Origin: Geothermobacter ehrlichii
Lineage (GTDB): Bacteria > Desulfobacterota > Desulfuromonadia > Desulfuromonadales > Geothermobacteraceae
Length of the DNA: 64,000 nucleotides
Assembly (NCBI RefSeq): GCF_008124615.1
Contig: NZ_VNIB01000010.1
Coordinates: 1 to 64,000 of the forward strand
Direction of reading: 5' to 3'
Positions 54,410 to 63,102 of this stretch are shown one piece after another (the stretch's first letter is position 1; each line of letters starts with the position of its first letter). A program made the translations under genes and the position numbers. The notes below the pieces were generated by a model. The model was not told the DNA's origin and did not search any database. It saw nothing but the letters and a program-made list of their open reading frames with translations.

Positions 54410-54545
54410 CTCGGGGTGACTGACGCCGGCGAAATATCCATCCGTTGCCCCGCAGAAGGCGCCCCGCGCCGGTCGCCGTGCCGTCGACACCCTGCCGTAT
54501 TATCCGCCGTCCATGCCGGTCGGCGGGGCCATGGAGTCTGTGGAC

Positions 54546-55112
54546 ATGCTCGATGAACGCCGGGAAGCGTTGAGGAACGCTCTGAACGATTCTGACGAGG
54601 AGGTTCGTCAGGCGGCGGCCAGGGCGCTGGACGGCATCGAACTGCTTGACAGTCTCGACGCCTTGCTGCAGGCGGTGGTCGCCGGCGAACGCGGTGAACG
54701 GGTCAAGGCCATTTTCGCCTTGGAAAGGGCCCGTTCTTCCCGGGTTTTTCCGGTTCTGCTCAAGGCGGTCGAGGACGAGGATGCCGATATCCGTGCCGCC
54801 GCCACCCAGGTGCTCGGTCGTCGGCACAATCCCCGGACCCTGAAGGCGGTGCTGGCGCGGCTGAAAGACAGCGAGCCGGCGGTGCGGGTTCACGCCGCCA
54901 CCGCCCTTGGCTATTTTTCCGACCGGCGGCTGGTTCCCTATCTGGCCGCCGTGCTCAAGGCGCGTGACGACGCCCTGGTCTGCGCCGCCATCGATTCTTT
55001 GGCCCGGATCGGCGATCCGTCCGCCGAGCCGCACCTGCTGCTGGCCCTGCACGATCCGCGGCGCAAGGTGCGTATTGCCGCCGCCGAGGCGCTGGGGCGT
55101 CTCGATTTCTGA
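54546..55112 (+). CDS. HEAT-repeat protein, 188 aa
   Basis: A small alpha-solenoid protein of about five to six HEAT (PBS-lyase-like) repeats with signatures EVRQAAARAL, DADIRAAATQVLG, EPAVRVHAATALG, DALVCAAIDSLARIG and RRKVRIAAAEALG. Such proteins usually serve as scaffolds. The start at 54546 has GGAG nine bases upstream; in-frame ATG codons at 54513 and 54531 are alternatives. It lies 136 bp downstream of ssb on the same strand. The longer HEAT protein at 56.8-58.3 kb has the same repeat type. Confidence 0.85.
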   Translation: MLDERREALRNALNDSDEEVRQAAARALDGIELLDSLDALLQAVVAGERGERVKAIFALERARSSRVFPVLLKAVEDEDADIRAAATQVLGRRHNPRTLKAVLARLKDSEPAVRVHAATALGYFSDRRLVPYLAAVLKARDDALVCAAIDSLARIGDPSAEPHLLLALHDPRRKVRIAAAEALGRLDF

Positions 55113-55452: not shown

Positions 55453-56781
55453 TCAGTCGAGATAGTCGGTGACGTCGATGTTGCGGCTGAAAGGATCGAC
55501 CTCGGCGACGATGCGGCGCTGGCCGTCTTCGGCCAGTTCGATGTCTTCCGGCGGTTCGATGCGCTCTCCGTCACCGTCGAAGAGGAGTCTGAGCCGGAGC
55601 TGCCCGGAATTCTCCGGGTTGATCCAGGCGATCAGGCCGATTTCGTTGCTGGTCAGGCGCACCAGGCTGCCGACCGGGTAAGGGCCGAGAAAGCGGGTGA
55701 AGCGTGCCAGATAGTCGGGATGGAGGGCTGTTCCTGAAAGTTCTTCCAGCCGGGCGACGGCCTGTTTCGGGGTCATGGGGCGCTGGTAGGAGCGCAGGGT
55801 GGTGATGGCGTCGTAGGTGTCGGCGATGGTCGCCATGTCGACCAGGGGCGAAAGCGCCTTGCCCTTGGCGTCGGCCGGATAGCCTTCGCGGTTGTAGCGC
55901 AGGTGATGTCCGAGAACGATGTCGATCACTTCGGGGGACATCCCCTCCATTTTGCGGACCAGATCGGCCCCGGTGGTGGGATGCTTCTTGATCTGCTCGA
56001 ACTCCTCGTCGGTGAGCCGCCCGGGTTTGTTGATGATATTCCAGTCGATTTTCAGCTTGCCGATGTCATGCAGCAGGGCCCCCAGACCCAACAGGCGCAG
56101 TTTTTCCTCCCCCAGGCCGCAGGCGCGGCCGACAGTCAGGGCCAGCACGGCCACGTTGACCGAGTGGGTGAAGGTGTAGTTGTCGTAATCCTTGAGCAGC
56201 GACATGGCGAACAGGGCGTGCGGATCGGTCAGGGTCATGTGGACCATGCTCTTGACGGTCTTGACCGCTTCTTCCGAGGAGGGGACAGTCCCCATGCGCA
56301 CATCGTGAAAGATGCGGTCAACGACATCCAGCGCCCGGCTGTAGATGGCCCGCGGCGTCTCGCTGTCCTCGTCGTCCCTGGCGCGAACGGGCAGAATGTG
56401 TCTGACGCCCCGGGCTCGCAGTGTCTGCTGCAAATCGCCGTTGCCGGCGCCTTCGTGCAGTACCAGTATGAACTGGCGGATCTCCTCGTTGGTGACGCCG
56501 CGGTTGAATTCGAGGCCTTCGATGTCGAAACGCTGGAGCTGGGCGATGACGTCGTTTGCCGCCGGTTGGTTGTCGGTGAAGAGGTGTTGGTCGACAAAGA
56601 GGCTGCCCTCCAGCAGGCCGACGCGCATCGATTGCCGGCGACGCAGGTAGAGCAGCAGCTGTTCCGACAGCCGGGCTATCTGTCGCTTGACCTCGGGATG
56701 GGCGGCTGGGTAGAGCTTCAGCCCCTTGCAGGCGGCGGCCAGAAACTGGACGATCTGCTGTGGTCTGTCCTGGTCAGTCAT
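55453..56781 (-). CDS. HD-GYP phosphodiesterase with an N-terminal YPxxHP domain
   Basis: A 442-residue signalling protein. The C-terminal HD-GYP domain (about 185-345) carries HD at 238-239 (LLHDIGKLK) and GYP at 300-302. The HHExxDGxGYP signature is changed to HHLRYNREGYP, so activity on cyclic di-GMP is possible but not certain. The N-terminal 110 residues (LKLYPAAHPEV at about 21-31, then MRVGLLEGSLFVD) resemble the start of the neighbouring HEAT protein. It overlaps that gene by 8 bp and is downstream of it. The two probably form one complex or pathway. Confidence 0.88.
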   Translation of the reverse strand: MTDQDRPQQIVQFLAAACKGLKLYPAAHPEVKRQIARLSEQLLLYLRRRQSMRVGLLEGSLFVDQHLFTDNQPAANDVIAQLQRFDIEGLEFNRGVTNEEIRQFILVLHEGAGNGDLQQTLRARGVRHILPVRARDDEDSETPRAIYSRALDVVDRIFHDVRMGTVPSSEEAVKTVKSMVHMTLTDPHALFAMSLLKDYDNYTFTHSVNVAVLALTVGRACGLGEEKLRLLGLGALLHDIGKLKIDWNIINKPGRLTDEEFEQIKKHPTTGADLVRKMEGMSPEVIDIVLGHHLRYNREGYPADAKGKALSPLVDMATIADTYDAITTLRSYQRPMTPKQAVARLEELSGTALHPDYLARFTRFLGPYPVGSLVRLTSNEIGLIAWINPENSGQLRLRLLFDGDGERIEPPEDIELAEDGQRRIVAEVDPFSRNIDVTDYLD

Positions 56782-58321
56782 GGGCGCGGTTCAGGTATTT
56801 CAGGGCTGTCGCCGCTTGGCGGGCGACCTCGGGAGAGCGGTCGCTGGCGGCCTGTTCCAGCAGCGGCGCGCTGTCCGGGGCGCCGATTTCGCCGATGGCC
56901 TGGGCGGCGGCGGCCCGCAGTTCGTTCTGTTCGTGGCGTTTGAAGATCCGGCGGGTCTTCAGGACGGTCGCCAGGGCCGGCAGGGCATCAAGCGAGCCGA
57001 TCTCCCCCAGGGCGCGAATGGCGTCCTTCTTGCGGCCGAGCTGCTTGCAGAAAAAGTCGCTTTTGCGGACGATTTTCAGCAGGTCGGGAACCGCCGTTTC
57101 GTCGCCGATCACACCCAGGGAAAGGATCGCCTGCCGGCTGATTTCCTCGTCGTCGTCGTTGATGATGTCGAGCAGAATGCGCGCCGCACCCGGACCGCCG
57201 ATGCGCGTCAGGGCGCGGATGGTTTCCCGGCAGACACGGATGTCTTCGTGGTGCAGCAGCGGATTCAGGTGGCGGGTGGCGGCCGGGTCTCTGATTTCCC
57301 CCAGGATGTTGACGGCGTTGCGCACCACATACCAGCGTTCGTCCCGCAGGTAGGCCGCCAGAAGCGGCACCGCCTGTGATCCCTGGCGGGCGAGGGCGTT
57401 GCTCAGGATCTTGCGGCAGGCTCCCACCTTTTCGCCGGCCAGCCGTTCCATCAGCCGCTCCAGGGAGCGTTGGCGCAGAAAAGTCAGAATGCGCAGCAGC
57501 AGCTCCCGATGACGGTCGGCGATCTCGCGGTCGCAGAGAAAATCGATCAGAAAGTCGATCAGTTCGGGTTGGGTCAGCTGGTTCAGGGCATTCAGCGCCG
57601 CTTCGCGTCGGGGCAGGCGGGCGCTGCGGTCTGCGGCGAACTGGCAGAGCAGGGCCAGGGCTTCGAGCAGCCGCAGGCGTCCACGGGGATTCTGACAGAG
57701 GCGGGCGAGGGGAACCAGCTCTTCGAGCAGGACGGCAAAGCGGCTGTCGTCCTGCTCGCGGCGCAATTCTTCGATGACCGTTTTCAGGTCCCGTTCGCCG
57801 ACATCGATCTCCAGGTTTTGCAGAAAGTCTTCGCCGCTCCCGCCGGTGTCATCGTCCTTGGTGATTTCGATTTCCCGCTTGTGGGCCAGGATCTGCTCCA
57901 GGTCGGTTTCGTTGACCCAGATGGTGGTGAGACGCGCCTTGAGCAGCAGGTCCTTGATGCCGCCGTGCCGGTGAACCTCGCGCGGATCGATGGCCAGGGC
58001 GCGGCCGAAACCGATCAGGTCGTCGGTGGAAAGATCGGGAAGGATCACCAGCGTCTGCACCAGGCGTCCGAAAAGGTAGGCGGCCAGCTTGCGCAGGACC
58101 TGGTTGCCGGCGGCGACGGGAGTCTCGTCGAGAAAGAATCCTTCCTTGTGCACCCTGAGCGTGAGATTGCGGCCGGCCTCAAGCAGAGGCAGAAAGGCGG
58201 TACGGGTTTCGGAGGCCGTGGTCGCGACGGCCGGATGCCCGGACGGGTAGTACTGGACCGCTTTGAGCAGCTTGGTCAGTTCGCGCAGGGCCGCTTCGAT
58301 CTGGGGCAGGGATTGGCTCAC
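56774..58321 (-). CDS. HEAT-repeat protein with an N-terminal YPxxHP domain, 515 aa
   Basis: A 515-residue protein. Residues 1-125 are like the N-terminus of the downstream HD-GYP protein (YYPSGHPAV at 24-32, then LTLRVHKEGFFLDETPV). Residues about 200-515 form eight or more HEAT repeats (RDERWYVVRNAVNILGEI, EDIRVCRETIRALTRIG, DEEISRQAILSLGVIG, ELRAAAAQAIGEIG, SPEVARQAATALKYL). It has no membrane segment or enzyme motif. The shared N-terminus and an 8-bp overlap with the HD-GYP gene suggest the two interact. I do not know a name for this N-terminal domain. Confidence 0.85.
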   Translation of the reverse strand: MSQSLPQIEAALRELTKLLKAVQYYPSGHPAVATTASETRTAFLPLLEAGRNLTLRVHKEGFFLDETPVAAGNQVLRKLAAYLFGRLVQTLVILPDLSTDDLIGFGRALAIDPREVHRHGGIKDLLLKARLTTIWVNETDLEQILAHKREIEITKDDDTGGSGEDFLQNLEIDVGERDLKTVIEELRREQDDSRFAVLLEELVPLARLCQNPRGRLRLLEALALLCQFAADRSARLPRREAALNALNQLTQPELIDFLIDFLCDREIADRHRELLLRILTFLRQRSLERLMERLAGEKVGACRKILSNALARQGSQAVPLLAAYLRDERWYVVRNAVNILGEIRDPAATRHLNPLLHHEDIRVCRETIRALTRIGGPGAARILLDIINDDDEEISRQAILSLGVIGDETAVPDLLKIVRKSDFFCKQLGRKKDAIRALGEIGSLDALPALATVLKTRRIFKRHEQNELRAAAAQAIGEIGAPDSAPLLEQAASDRSPEVARQAATALKYLNRAHD

Positions 58322-58430: not shown

Positions 58431-58734
58431 CTGGCTGCTGAAAAACTATTGCGGTTGGCGTGACCATGAGTCCGCAAACCCATGCCCGACAGATAGCACG
58501 TCATTGAGCTGCCTGAGGATCGCAAAAATCACCGATGAACCAGCGGGTGCATCGGTGATTTTTGCAACGCCCACTCCGGTCAAGCACGCGCACACTCTTC
58601 TACGGTCTGAGCTTGCGAACTCAGGGAGGCGTTGAAAACAGCCTCAAATGCTCATTTGCCGATTTTGTAAACTGCGCTTTTTCGGCTGTTTTCGCCTTGT
58701 CTTGCCTGCCCTCATAACATTTTTCAACGCCCTG
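58431..58734. repeat. large copy of the dispersed inverted-repeat element, with an insert
   Basis: The outer ends (CTGCTGAAAAAC near 58436 and TTTTTCAACGCCCTG at 58720-58734) match the ends of the recA-upstream element. Internal blocks 58439-58460 and 58628-58646 are identical to 38583-38604 and 38609-38627; between them are 167 bp here against 4 bp there. The insert contains a perfect 16-bp hairpin (58522-58537 with 58550-58565). Its right portion is also found upstream of ftsK. No protein gene is convincing inside it. Confidence 0.75.
58522..58565. terminator. perfect 16-bp hairpin inside the large dispersed repeat
   Basis: GCAAAAATCACCGATG (58522-58537) pairs perfectly with 58550-58565 across a 12-nt loop. 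It has an A-run on one arm and T-run on the other, so it could stop transcription in either direction, between the converging acyl-CoA synthetase region and HEAT gene. Confidence 0.6.
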
Positions 58735-58743
58735 CCAACCGGT

Positions 58744-60555
58744 TCAGTCGTTATCCGTCAGGCAGTAGCCGGCGTCGTGGATGCCGTGATCTTGCGGCAG
58801 GTACATCCGTTCGATCAGGTCGGCGTAGGTGTCGCGGATGATTTTGCGCTTCAGTTTGAGTGTCGGGGTGATCTCCCTGCCCGAGAAGTCGCGCGACATC
58901 AGGGTGAAGCGTTTGATGTGCATGAATCCCGGCTGTCCGGCCTGCAGCCGGTCGACCCGGCGGCGGATAAGGTCGAGAATGACCGGGTGGTTCACCAGCC
59001 CGCAGTGGTCGAGGTAGGGAAGCTTTTTCAGCCGGGCGTATTTTTCCAGGTTGTCGAAGTTGGGGACGATCAGGGCGACGAGGTAGGGTTTGCGGTTGCC
59101 GAAGACGAAGGCGTTGGCGATGAACTTGTCCGACTTGAGGCGGTTTTCGATCAGCTGCGGGGCGATGTTCTCCCCGCCGGCGGTGATGATCAGGTCTTTC
59201 TTGCGGTCGGTGATGCCGAGAAAGCCGTCCCGGTCGAGAGTGCCGATATCGCCGGTGTAGAACCAGCCGTCCCGCAGGGCTTCGTCGGTCTTGACCGGGT
59301 TCTGCCAGTAGCCCTTGAAGACGGTCTTGCCGCGGATCAGGATTTCGCCGTCGTCGGCGATGAGGATTTCAGTTCCCGGCATGCAGCGACCGACGGTGCC
59401 CAGGCGCACCTGTCCCTCGCAGTTGGCGGCGATGCCGGCCGAGGTCTCGGTCAGGCCGTAGCCCTCGTAGATGGGGATTCCGGCGGCGAGAAAGAATTCG
59501 GCCACGTTACGCGCCAGAGGGGCGCCGCCGGAAACGAAGAAGCGGATTCTGCCGCCCAGCGGCTCGCGCAGCTTGCCGAAGACCTTGTCGCGGGCGATCC
59601 GCACCACTCTGTCCAGCCATCCGGGGATTTCCTGCCCGGCCAGTTCGAGATGCAGGTGCCGGGTGCAGGCTTTCAGGGCGGCGAAGAAGATCTGCTTTTT
59701 CAGCCAGGAACCGGAACCAACTCGCTCCATGACCCGGGCGTACATCTTTTCGAACAGGCGGGGAACGCTGATGACCACCGTCGGCCTGACCTCCTGCAGG
59801 TTGACCGGGACGCTGTCGATGCTTTCGGCGTAGTTGATGGTCGCGCCCTGGATAAGCATGAAGTAGTAGCCGTCGACCCGTTCGAAGACATGCGACAGCG
59901 GCAGGAAGGAAAGACAGGAGTCGGCGGGGCTGATGCTGAAGACGCAGGCGGCCGCCTCGACCGCCGAAAGGATGTTGTCGTGGGTGAGCATCGCCCCTTT
60001 CGGCGGACCGGTGGTGCCGGAGGTGTAGACGATGGTGGCCAGATCTTCCCGTTTGACCTGGGCGAGGCGCCGGTCGAGGAGCTGGCTGTCGACGGTGTCG
60101 GGCAAAAAGCGGCGCAGCGGAATCGCCGCCTCGCCGTTGCTGTCGCCCTCGATCAGGATGATCGACTCCAGGTCAGGAAGCTGGGCGAGCTGCGTCTCGA
60201 TCTTGCGCAGCTCGTCGATGGAACGGACGAATACGAAGCGACTGCCGGAATTGTTCAGGATGTAGGCTGCCTCCTCCGCCCCTTCGGTGTGGTAGACGGG
60301 GACCGTCACGCCGCCGCAGGCCATGATCGCCAGGTCGGCGAAGGCCCATTCCGGCCGGTTGGGTGACATGATGGCCACCCGGTCGCCCGGTTCGATGCCG
60401 AGGGCGAGCAGGCCGCCGGCAAAGCGCCGGACCTGTTGCACAAACCGTTGCCAGTCAATATCACGCCAACGGTCGCCCAGCTTGGTTCGCATGACGACCT
60501 GGCGGCCGCGTTCGGGCGCCAGGTCGAGGATGGTCTGGGGAATGTTTCGATGCAT
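58744..60555 (-). CDS. long-chain fatty-acid-CoA ligase (AMP-forming)
   Basis: A 603-residue adenylate-forming enzyme that activates fatty acids with ATP and CoA. The AMP-binding P-loop YTSGTTGPPKGAM, the YGLTET motif, the hinge YTGDIGTLDRDGFLGITDRKKDLI (split in reading) and the C-terminal Lys region KLKRKIIRDTYADLIERMY are present, all as in FadD15-type ligases. GGAGG with a five-base gap precedes ATG 60555; longer in-frame sequence upstream is the complement of coaE and is not coding. It is divergent from coaE. Confidence 0.95.
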   Translation of the reverse strand: MHRNIPQTILDLAPERGRQVVMRTKLGDRWRDIDWQRFVQQVRRFAGGLLALGIEPGDRVAIMSPNRPEWAFADLAIMACGGVTVPVYHTEGAEEAAYILNNSGSRFVFVRSIDELRKIETQLAQLPDLESIILIEGDSNGEAAIPLRRFLPDTVDSQLLDRRLAQVKREDLATIVYTSGTTGPPKGAMLTHDNILSAVEAAACVFSISPADSCLSFLPLSHVFERVDGYYFMLIQGATINYAESIDSVPVNLQEVRPTVVISVPRLFEKMYARVMERVGSGSWLKKQIFFAALKACTRHLHLELAGQEIPGWLDRVVRIARDKVFGKLREPLGGRIRFFVSGGAPLARNVAEFFLAAGIPIYEGYGLTETSAGIAANCEGQVRLGTVGRCMPGTEILIADDGEILIRGKTVFKGYWQNPVKTDEALRDGWFYTGDIGTLDRDGFLGITDRKKDLIITAGGENIAPQLIENRLKSDKFIANAFVFGNRKPYLVALIVPNFDNLEKYARLKKLPYLDHCGLVNHPVILDLIRRRVDRLQAGQPGFMHIKRFTLMSRDFSGREITPTLKLKRKIIRDTYADLIERMYLPQDHGIHDAGYCLTDND

Positions 60556-60690
60556 GTTCACCTCCGGCCGTGATTCGCTTTCTTTCGGGATTCTGCTTTC
60601 TTTCATTATACCGGGGAAATGGCGGATTTCCGGCACGGCGATGCCTTTTGCAGGCTTGACATGCCGGCGCGGCGCTGGCATGAAGGAGTC

Positions 60691-61290
60691 ATGATTCTGG
60701 GGATCACGGGCAATATCGCCAGCGGCAAGAGCCGGGTGGCGGCCAGGATGGTCGAACTGGGAGCGGTGGCCCTCAGCGCCGATCAGCTTGCGCGAGAGGC
60801 GGTGGGCCCCGGCAGCGACACCCTGACCAAGCTGGTCGCCGTGTTTGGCGACGCCATTCTGGCGGCTGACGGCAGTCTTGACCGGCCGCGCCTTGCGGAG
60901 ATCGTCTTTGCCGATGCCGAAGCGCGAAAACGGCTCGAGGCGATCACCCACCCGGCCATCGCCCGCCTGGCCGAGGAGCGGCTGCGACGGCTGAGGCAGG
61001 AAGGCCACCGGCTGGTGGTCTACGAGGCGCCGCTTCTCTTCGAGGCCGGTGCCGAGGGACGGGTCGACCGGGTGCTGGTGGTGCTGGCGGCGACCGAGGT
61101 GCGGCTGGCGCGGCTGATGGCCCGGGACGGTCTGGAGCGCGAAGCGGCCCTGAGCCGGATCCGGGCGCAGATGCCGCAGGAGGAGAAGGCGGCGCGGGCT
61201 GATTACGTCATCGACAATTCCGGGGACTGGGAGGACTGCCGCCGGCAGGTCGACGATCTCTACCGCCGGCTGGTTTCTTCGCCGGCCTGA
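60691..61290 (+). CDS. coaE: dephospho-CoA kinase
   Basis: CoaE phosphorylates dephospho-CoA, the last step of CoA synthesis. The 199-residue protein has Walker A GNIASGKS (7-14) and the typical ADQLAREAVGPGSDTL and EAPLLFEAG segments. AAGGAG precedes the ATG. The 3' end overlaps the convergent alpha/beta hydrolase gene by 31 bp. It is divergent from the acyl-CoA synthetase gene, which uses CoA. Confidence 0.95.
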   Translation: MILGITGNIASGKSRVAARMVELGAVALSADQLAREAVGPGSDTLTKLVAVFGDAILAADGSLDRPRLAEIVFADAEARKRLEAITHPAIARLAEERLRRLRQEGHRLVVYEAPLLFEAGAEGRVDRVLVVLAATEVRLARLMARDGLEREAALSRIRAQMPQEEKAARADYVIDNSGDWEDCRRQVDDLYRRLVSSPA

Positions 61291-62090
61291 TCCGTGCCAT
61301 CCAGAAAGCGGCCGATGCGCTGCAGGGTGTCGGCGAGATGCGGGTTGTCCGGCAGGGTCAGCACGTGCGGCGCCTCCGGACCGTAACGGTGGAAGGCCTT
61401 CTCGCGGCTGCCGAGCTGTCGGAACAGCTGTTCGGTGCTTTCGGGGTCGATGGTCTGATCGCCGAGGCTGCCGAGGATGAGACAGGGCAGCTCGATCGTT
61501 TGCAGCCGCGGCCGCAGATCAGCGAGCAGCCAGTGGATTTCGGCGATGCCGGCCAGCGGGCGGCGTTCGTAGAAGAAGGGGGCGACGGCCGGAACCTTGG
61601 GATGATGTTGGTAGGGGCGCAGGTGCCTGAGCAGCCAGGCCAGCCGGGCGAGACGGTGCCTGACGCGCAGGAAGGGGGAACAGAGGGCCAGCCGGGTGAT
61701 GGGAGAACCGCCGGCGGCGGCCCGCAGCAGCAGCAGGGAGCCGGTGCTTGAACCGACCGCGGCGGGCGGGCCGAATTCAGCACTCAGCAGCTGCAATCCT
61801 TCTTCGACGACCTGCAGCCAGTTTCGCCAGGATTGCCGTGCCAGGTCCTCGGGGCTGGTGCCGTGTCCCGGCAGGCGCACCGCCAGGCAGGGATGGCCGC
61901 GCCTTGCCAGGTACTCCGCCGGCAGGCGCATCTCGTACGGCGAGGCGGTGAAGCCGTGCACCAGCAGAACCGCCGCTTTTTTTCGCTTTTCGCCGGCAAG
62001 GAAAAAGGGAAGGTTTTCCGGGCGGCTCACGCCCTCCTCCCTTCCCCGCCGGCGGCAGGCTGCGATGTAGTGGTCGATGCTTTCGCTCAT
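61260..62090 (-). CDS. alpha/beta hydrolase, carboxylesterase-like
   Basis: A 276-residue alpha/beta-hydrolase. The oxyanion stretch LLVHGFTASP (43-52), the nucleophile elbow GSSTG (113-117; Ser115), the acid GDQTIDP (about 213) and the histidine in APHVLTLPDNPH (about 242) fit the triad. It resembles carboxylesterases or monoglyceride lipases of the est30 type. The 3' end overlaps coaE by 31 bp. Substrate unknown. Confidence 0.85.
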   Translation of the reverse strand: MSESIDHYIAACRRRGREEGVSRPENLPFFLAGEKRKKAAVLLVHGFTASPYEMRLPAEYLARRGHPCLAVRLPGHGTSPEDLARQSWRNWLQVVEEGLQLLSAEFGPPAAVGSSTGSLLLLRAAAGGSPITRLALCSPFLRVRHRLARLAWLLRHLRPYQHHPKVPAVAPFFYERRPLAGIAEIHWLLADLRPRLQTIELPCLILGSLGDQTIDPESTEQLFRQLGSREKAFHRYGPEAPHVLTLPDNPHLADTLQRIGRFLDGTDQAGEETSRR

Positions 62091-62163: not shown

Positions 62164-62943
62164 TTACTTGTGGTAGCCGAGCCGGGTCGAGAGCTCTTCC
62201 GCCGCCTTGACCACCAGCGGCGCCAGCTCCTTTTCGATCAGCTCCATGGGCATCCGCATCGAGGGCCCGGAGATGCTGATGGCGCCGACGATGCGGCGGG
62301 TGTAGTCGCGGATCGGGGCCGCGATGCAGCGGACGCCGGGGTCGAGTTCTTCGTCGTCGATGGCGTAGCCCTGCTCGGCAATCTTCTTCAGTTCCGCCTT
62401 CAGCTTGTCGCGGTCGGCCAGGGTGGTCGGCGTATGGGCCTCCAGCTCATCGGGCAGCACCTCTTCCAGCTCCTCTTCCGACATGTGGGCCAGGTGAACC
62501 TTGCCCGAGGCGGTGCAGTAGGCCGGCAGCCGGGTGCCGACGCGGGAGACGACCCGCACCGTCTGGTCGGTTTCGACGACATCGAGGTAGACGATGTGCG
62601 ATTCCTTGAAGATGGCCACGTAGGAGGTTTCGTTGCACTGTTTGACCAGCTTCTCGAGAATCGGCTTCGCCTGCCGCAGAAGCCCCATCTGCTTGATGAA
62701 GGTCTGCCCCAGTTCGAGGGATTTCAGCCCGAGCCGGTAGTTTTCGGTCGCCTTGTTCTGCTCGATGTACCCCCGCGATTCGAGGGTGGCCAGCAGGCGG
62801 AAGACGTTGTTCTTGTGCAGTTTCAGCCTCTTGGACAGCTCGGTGACGCCGAGTTCGTCGACATCGTCGTGAAACTGTTCGAGCAGGTCGAGAGCGTGCG
62901 AGACTGCCTGGATGATATATTCGGATTTTTCTTTCTTGGCCAT
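62164..62943 (-). CDS. IclR-family transcription regulator
   Basis: A 259-residue regulator. An N-terminal winged helix-turn-helix (about 10-75; ELGVTELSKRLKLHKNNVFRLL) is followed by a GAF-like effector domain (about 90-255; GTRLPAYCTASGKVHLAHMSE, and GVRCIAAPIRDYTRRIVGAISISGP). The typical IclR effector motif is intact. The effector is usually a small organic acid or aromatic metabolite. The ATG at 62943 begins MAKKEKSEYI; longer in-frame sequence is not conserved. A strong promoter-like pair and a palindrome are upstream at 63103-63146. Confidence 0.92.
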   Translation of the reverse strand: MAKKEKSEYIIQAVSHALDLLEQFHDDVDELGVTELSKRLKLHKNNVFRLLATLESRGYIEQNKATENYRLGLKSLELGQTFIKQMGLLRQAKPILEKLVKQCNETSYVAIFKESHIVYLDVVETDQTVRVVSRVGTRLPAYCTASGKVHLAHMSEEELEEVLPDELEAHTPTTLADRDKLKAELKKIAEQGYAIDDEELDPGVRCIAAPIRDYTRRIVGAISISGPSMRMPMELIEKELAPLVVKAAEELSTRLGYHK

Positions 62944-63102
62944 GTTTCCAGAATCCCCTCGTCTAGAGTCGGCGGACAAGACCCTTCATCATAGAAAAAA
63001 ACAGCGCTGTGTCAAGGACAAAAGGCGGCTGTTCGATTTGGCCAAACGGCGAAAATTCGTTGGAGTTTCAGCCTTCTGGCCGTGATGCTTCTTGTCTCGA
63101 AA

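Follow-up and report, generated by a model that had tools for sequence, protein, structure and literature searches.

A shared N-terminal domain, absent from Pfam, in adjacent HEAT-repeat and HD-GYP genes of Geothermobacter ehrlichii

Positions 1-64,000 of the forward strand of contig NZ_VNIB01000010.1 from Geothermobacter ehrlichii (assembly GCF_008124615.1; the whole 64,000-nucleotide stretch is here called the window) contain two overlapping genes on the minus strand, which encode a HEAT-repeat protein (P0002) and an HD-GYP protein (P0001). An earlier note on this DNA had placed both genes at these positions with an overlap of 8 bp (56774-56781, minus strand), as the sequence confirms, and had proposed that the two proteins begin with a common domain and bind each other or the same partner. 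The N-terminal domains (N-domains) of the HEAT and HD-GYP proteins are referred to below as HEAT-N and HD-N, respectively. The features of the gene pair are as follows.

56774..58321, minus strand: HEAT gene (P0002, 515 amino acids, GTG start), an open reading frame (ORF) whose translation comprises the N-domain and then a HEAT solenoid
57902..58321, minus strand: N-domain of P0002, residues 1-140, supported by hhalign and by an AlphaFold2 model from the HEAT-N alignment alone
56792..57379, minus strand: C-terminal HEAT repeats of P0002, about residues 315-510, from Pfam HEAT_2, HEAT and HEAT_PBS stretches
56774..56781, minus strand: 8-bp overlap of the HEAT and HD-GYP genes, the TGA stop of the former falling within the start of the latter
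55453..56781, minus strand: HD-GYP gene (P0001, 442 amino acids), an ORF whose translation comprises the N-domain, a helical linker, an HD_5 catalytic domain and a C-terminal extension
56377..56781, minus strand: N-domain of P0001, residues 1-135, supported by hhalign and an AlphaFold2 model
55729..56202, minus strand: HD-GYP catalytic domain of P0001, from a match to PF13487 in the G. ehrlichii genome

The Pfam HD_5 match covers residues 194-351 of P0001 (expectation value, E = 1.4e-23; 83.9 bits against a cut-off of 27.2). P0002 matches HEAT_2 in five stretches (E = 1.5e-33; 115.3 bits against a cut-off of 27.7), and its NCBIfam HEAT-type matches, at residues 315-398 and 394-510, both lie under their own cut-offs. 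Neither Pfam nor NCBIfam has a match over the first ~130 residues of P0001 or P0002.

One homologous domain at both N-termini

The first ~135-140 residues of P0001 and P0002 are one homologous domain. This is unproven by the two sequences alone, since BLASTP aligns them over only 47 amino acids at 21% identity, with an insignificant E of 0.088. For profile comparisons, P0002 was searched against 39 genomes (G. ehrlichii itself, its genus, family and order), all 39 of which gave a match somewhere, and longer loci were taken for 35 of the 38 relatives (L031-L065) and for three others. The first profile set held 35 HD-N and 34 HEAT-N sequences, window included, and hhalign matched the two profiles over 134 columns with a probability of 98.2 (E = 2.7e-14, score 89.2). 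In the controls, 50 column shuffles gave at most a probability of 3.8 and a score of 21.2, and reversed profiles scored 10.4 and 11.4. A second set, drawn from named genome contigs (205 relatives, of which the best 80 were kept, corresponding to 79 distinct loci) and sharing many organisms with the first, yielded 62 HD-N and 66 HEAT-N segments; one and three fragmentary or divergent segments were omitted, and 61 and 63 were aligned together with the window's own. The resulting profiles (62 HD-N against 64 HEAT-N sequences) matched over 142 columns with a probability of 99.6 and E = 9.3e-25. Identity between the two types of N-domain is 14% in the first-set alignment and 13% in the second. Furthermore, a profile built from HD-N sequences only matches the N-terminus of P0002 within the G. 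ehrlichii genome (E = 4.4e-10).

The common domain postulated by the earlier note is therefore borne out by significant profile similarity between the two N-termini. Its extent, given there as 110-125 residues, is revised to about 135-140, with two or three helices and then a short strand at its end. The two cores that the note had read, LYPAAHP in P0001 and YYPSGHP in P0002, are both present in the translations, and the LRV-EG-FLxD-like stretch is found as described, as LLEGSLFVDQ in one N-terminus and VHKEGFFLDE in the other. The YPxxHP core holds for the window pair, but not as a universal mark of the wider family, since [YF]xxxHP is matched by 34/64 HD-type and 42/72 HEAT-type domains of a broad set. 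In the second-set alignments, Y24, H28 and P29 are near-invariant in HD-N, and in HEAT-N Y25 and P26 are invariant and P30 almost so.

That the likeness arose by chance or by convergence around the short YPxxHP motif, as the insignificant BLASTP result might suggest, is exceedingly improbable: the shuffled and reversed controls are low and rule out chance, the profile matches are full-length in both sets (albeit with shared organisms), and alignments of HD-N only and of HEAT-N only lead to the same predicted topology. Spill-over from the neighbouring domains was likewise rejected. The N-domain profiles have no match to the HEAT part of P0002 or to a small HEAT protein encoded nearby (best probability 3.9), and the HD-N profile matches the HD part over 18 columns only, where both cut segments overlap.

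AlphaFold2 models of the two N-domains, each made from its own alignment, have predicted local distance difference test scores of 89.5 (HD-N) and 92.7 (HEAT-N). Common to both is the order of elements: two helices with the YPxxHP turn between them, a beta hairpin, a helix, a strand, two to three helices and a final strand. The domain is absent from Pfam as a family; Pfam searches of N-domain members gave no family for the window domains and three stray single-member matches (E 0.003-0.008) among the 62 and 64 members, and NCBIfam gave one stray match among the 64 members of the HEAT-N set. Foldseek against the PDB returned no match at E ≤ 0.001 for either model. VIA structural comparison gave a best Z of 7.0 for HD-N (root-mean-square deviation, rmsd, 1.9 over 49 residues, a helical hairpin) and of 3.0 for HEAT-N (rmsd 5.0, 98 residues). 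No known PDB fold is a clear match, and the weak GAF-containing entries that recur for both models are insignificant. Profile matches to PDB chains at E < 0.1 are to two engineered repeat-bearing proteins, Octarellin V.1 and a connected cytochrome c555 trimer, and all the rest have E > 0.1.

Distribution, gene pairing and architectures

Of 198 genomes sampled within the phylum, 78 have a match to the HD-N profile, and the domain also occurs in other phyla. Pairs of N-domain HEAT and HD-GYP genes are found in named records of Desulfuromonadales, Dadabacteria, Nitrospirae, Rokubacteria and Zixibacteria, as well as in Gemmatimonadetes genomes, one of which has five pairs. Across these lineages the gene order is HEAT then HD-GYP, adjacent or overlapping. 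At several Gemmatimonadetes loci of the named-contig scan the HEAT protein has no N-domain, and the loci examined in two actinobacterial genomes hold an N-domain HEAT protein without an HD-GYP partner.

A HEAT-type gene lies directly upstream of the N-domain HD-GYP gene in 34/34 cases of the order set and 49/49 of the named-contig set, both of which were retrieved by a HEAT query and are therefore biased toward pairs. Among loci found with N-domain profiles, the same holds for 27/27 of the thirty best phylum matches of the HD-N profile (the other three being L093, which is not of HD type, and L072 and L080, already counted) and for 19/20 phylum and 16/16 other-phyla loci, which were hand-picked and are not a random sample. 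Combined, these profile-derived sets hold 63 N-domain HD-GYP genes, and for 62 of them the next gene upstream is of HEAT type; the only exception is a lone HD-GYP gene in the G. ehrlichii genome. The N-domain of the HEAT protein itself is not visible in 13 of 145 pairs, of which seven come from loci truncated at 1.5 kb. Conversely, HEAT-type N-domain proteins without a following HD-GYP gene number 7/28 in the phylum picks, 4/17 in the other-phyla picks, 5/16 in L181-L208 and 0/48 in L130-L180, counts that leave out locus-edge, short and GGDEF-type ORFs; the 16 unpaired ORFs include two without recognised HEAT repeats and at least two (L188/L262 and L191/L264) that are the same gene in two sets. 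That N-domain HD-GYP proteins almost never occur without HEAT, while N-domain HEAT proteins can stand alone, would fit a HEAT protein serving as platform and an HD-GYP protein as output.

In a tree of 156 N-domains, sorting of 136 tips into HEAT-type and HD-type needs four changes, as against at least 37 in 200 shuffles; the two types are therefore old and have been kept apart. Over 82 pairs, the distances among HEAT-N domains follow those among HD-N domains (r = 0.87, a value reached in none of 1000 permutations), and for the five paralogous pairs of one Gemmatimonadetes genome the two matrices are nearly equal (e.g. 0.47/0.44 and 0.82/0.81). The HEAT and HD-GYP genes are inherited and duplicated as a unit.

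The domain occurs five times in the G. ehrlichii genome: in the window pair, in a second pair on contig C8 and in the lone HD-GYP gene on contig C4. The second pair (L066, contig C8:33000-42000) encodes a HEAT protein of 736 and an HD-GYP protein of 389 amino acids with the same N-domains; genes of SpoVR and PrkA type lie immediately upstream of it in the same orientation. The lone gene (L110 3693-5306) is flanked by a Nudix-like and a glutamate-synthase-like ORF, both named by eye. Of the nine HD_5 genes in this genome, the six without an N-domain have no match to the HEAT profile of the N-domain family within ±1.5 kb. Elsewhere, a single genome has its HEAT ortholog broken into two ORFs, N-domain and solenoid (L056 4974-6637), by a frameshift, a sequencing error or a real split.

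Besides HEAT and HD-GYP proteins, N-domain carriers include GGDEF-AAA-HEAT chains, with one or two copies, and a HEAT-cNMP-PilZ chain. Pfam, applied to L114 and L119, gives GGDEF, AAA_16 and HEAT_2 for the former, which reads GGDEF-AAA-N-N-HEAT with two tandem N-domains (N), and identifies the latter as a GGDEF-AAA-HEAT chain with one. The chains of L115-L117, L124, L125 and L228 were assigned by N-domain position, HEAT profile and sequence. Single-copy GGDEF-type chains measure 1180-1197 amino acids; those with two tandem N-domains and HEAT repeats (L114, L115, L116, L117 and L124) measure 1414-1447, and L115 has two such genes consecutively. The GGDEF motif of eight chains is AGDEF in six, AGDNF in one and GADEF in one. 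The HEAT-cNMP-PilZ chain, at L118 (3014-8056), has 1680 residues; besides its N-domain and HEAT repeats it contains a domain for cNMP binding and, at the C-terminus, a PilZ domain that bears a motif resembling RxxxR...DxSxxG.

The enzyme and its proposed docking on the HEAT protein

The catalytic domain was examined in an alignment of 118 rows including P0001, made from 137 N-domain HD ORFs minus duplicates and incomplete domains. H206, H238, D239, H267, H292, H293 and D321 are identical in all 118 rows, as are the HDxGK lysine, GYP 300-302, R330 and Y332; the first seven we take to be the metal ligands, from PmGH numbering that is consistent with the alignment to PDB homologues. Four residues before the first histidine all 118 rows have tyrosine, so the glutamate of a PmGH-type trinuclear site is lacking; in PmGH this position is presumably the extra third-metal ligand, consistent with the alignment to 4mcw. 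The canonical HHE glutamate beside the GYP loop is present in none of the 118 rows, being replaced by L in 81, M in 12, I in 7 and other residues in 18, with leucine in P0001. On these residues, P0001 is probably an active binuclear HD-GYP enzyme. Its substrate would be cyclic di-GMP or 3',3'-cyclic GMP-AMP (3',3'-cGAMP); either is possible because Geobacter, a member of the same order, uses both according to two papers (PMC6456294, PMC8835794).

We propose, at a probability of about one half, that the HEAT and HD-GYP proteins are partners in a conserved two-gene cyclic-dinucleotide module, in which the N-domains pair and dock the phosphodiesterase on a regulating HEAT solenoid. P0001 would be a phosphodiesterase whose binuclear-type metal site is intact, and P0002 would be its dedicated scaffold and regulator. 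The ~135-residue alpha/beta N-domains of the two would pair with one another, placing the enzyme on the HEAT solenoid, and the solenoid would sense another protein or signal and thereby localise or switch the phosphodiesterase. The partnership itself is well supported; as far as sequence can indicate, direct binding between the N-domains is plausible, as are the enzyme activity of P0001 and its control by the HEAT protein. Two tandem N-domains in one chain, as in L114, are what would be expected of a built-in pair. The earlier interpretation is partly supported: the domain is indeed common to both proteins, the genes remain neighbours in distantly related bacteria, and the family has a cyclic-dinucleotide setting (HD-GYP proteins, GGDEF-AAA-HEAT and HEAT-cNMP-PilZ chains).

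Several observations weigh against this proposal. The lone N-domain HD-GYP gene of G. ehrlichii has no adjacent HEAT gene. In the GGDEF chains both tandem N-domains lack the motif histidine and both group with HEAT-type copies on the tree, so that a tandem of one of each type is unsupported and the arrangement mimics the HEAT/HD-GYP pair imperfectly. HEAT-N distances correlate just as highly with those of the HD catalytic domain (r = 0.88), and the correlation therefore points to inheritance as a unit rather than to a specific contact between N-domains; operon inheritance yields the same correlation, and shared species history adds to it. Lastly, the absence of the HHE glutamate from all 118 rows makes the activity of P0001 uncertain.

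Less probable, yet the strongest competitor, is a role of the N-domain in docking or ligand binding that is common to both proteins: each would use it to bind one and the same third partner or small molecule, or to homodimerise, and the two would act in one pathway with no mutual contact. The lone N-domain HEAT proteins and the lone HD-GYP protein of G. ehrlichii fit such a role, as do the single copies in GGDEF-type chains of 1180-1197 amino acids and the third, small HEAT gene that stands beside the pair in 32/36 loci; the HEAT-type genes upstream of 62/63 N-domain HD-GYP genes in the profile-derived sets are left unexplained. We consider it unlikely that an ancient duplication left both proteins with a passive structural cap and that they are tied only by co-transcription and a shared pathway. 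Low identity between the types (14% and 13%), the existence of lone copies and the sufficiency of operon inheritance to account for the co-divergence of the pair favour this reading, but both members of the pair retain the domain across six or more named lineages and GGDEF and PilZ chains have it as well, none of which a passive cap would require.

Docking of the HD-GYP protein on the HEAT protein could have a wider bearing. More tentatively, an unrecognised pairing domain may found a modular second-messenger family, in which HEAT proteins recruit HD-GYP proteins in trans by N-domain heterodimerisation; elsewhere the domain, in some cases twice in a row, would link HEAT repeats with an AAA ATPase and a GGDEF cyclase within one chain. 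If so, HEAT platforms in many phyla would be local hubs governing how cyclic dinucleotides are made (GGDEF), degraded (HD-GYP) and read out (PilZ). To our knowledge, the regulation of HD-GYP enzymes is poorly understood. A domain absent from Pfam that marks a dedicated HEAT partner of these enzymes in several lineages would make regulation by a scaffold in trans testable with two proteins; it would also allow many unassigned N-termini to be annotated and would join GGDEF, HD-GYP and PilZ proteins into one set. Among the papers listed in literature searches on HD-GYP, HEAT repeats, cyclic di-GMP and Geobacter, no title or abstract opening gives an account of this HEAT/HD-GYP pair.

Gene neighbourhood and comparison with known systems

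The genes around the pair in the window are the following, with homologues counted over 36 loci, window included.

54513..55112, plus strand: small HEAT protein, 199 amino acids, convergent with the pair (Pfam HEAT_2, E = 3.9e-31), with homologues in 32/36 loci
58744..61008, minus strand: AMP-binding gene of the acyl-CoA synthetase type (Pfam PF00501, E = 1.7e-82), the start of the ORF probably over-extended
60619-61290, plus strand: CoaE gene, between the hydrolase and ligase genes on the opposite strand
61260..62090, minus strand: alpha/beta hydrolase (Pfam), with homologues in 26/36 loci
62164..62979, minus strand: IclR-type regulator (Pfam), with homologues in 32/36 loci

The small HEAT protein, downstream of the pair, has no N-domain by profile comparison with the N-domains. 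Upstream, the same-strand order is IclR regulator, alpha/beta hydrolase and acyl-CoA-synthetase-type gene, the last with a same-strand homologue in at least 24/36 loci (several loci being truncated). The gap of 422 bp between it and the HEAT gene holds a dispersed repeat and a single weak promoter-like match, where chance would give 0.4, so that the pair may be transcribed separately from the upstream genes. The repeat, an intergenic element of ~107 bp at 58625-58745, has 19 matches in the G. ehrlichii genome including itself, at 74-100% identity and some of them short. A link of the pair to lipid metabolism is a lead only.

Generic matches alone were obtained from PADLOC (Cas3 HD, E = 1.1e-5; HEAT-ARM_XIII, E = 1.1e-12), which point to no single anti-phage defence system. 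P0002 has HEAT_PBS-type repeats like the PBS-lyase/HEAT proteins NblB and CpcE, but scores far too low for either, at 70.4 bits for NblB (curated cut-off 300) and 35.7 bits for CpcE (330), and phycobilisomes would not be expected in G. ehrlichii. GAF-type sensors such as PelD and phytochromes, which are among the weak Foldseek entries of both models, resemble the N-domain in being alpha/beta domains with N-terminal helices; however, the best E is 0.054, the template modelling score is about 0.2 and there is no sequence match.

The nearest counterparts of P0001 are 4mcw ('metal dependent phosphohydrolase') and 5z7c (3'3'-cGAMP-specific phosphodiesterase 3), with which it shares the HD_5 domain, the seven metal ligands, the HDxGK lysine and GYP; the tyrosine that precedes the first histidine by four residues is present in 5z7c too. 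P0001 differs from both in the replacement of the HHE glutamate, by L, M, I and others across its family, in its new N-terminal domain and in a probable regulator encoded in trans by the HEAT gene. Bd1817 of Bdellovibrio (3tm8; E = 4.1e-12) likewise belongs to the HD-GYP type and has an N-terminal region of its own, but only residues 179-335 of the query are significant, the N-domain is unaligned and Bd1817 is gapped at the GYP tyrosine. The closest known kind is an HD-GYP phosphodiesterase with regulatory input, to which the pair described here adds a domain not yet catalogued and, probably, a dedicated HEAT partner encoded in trans.

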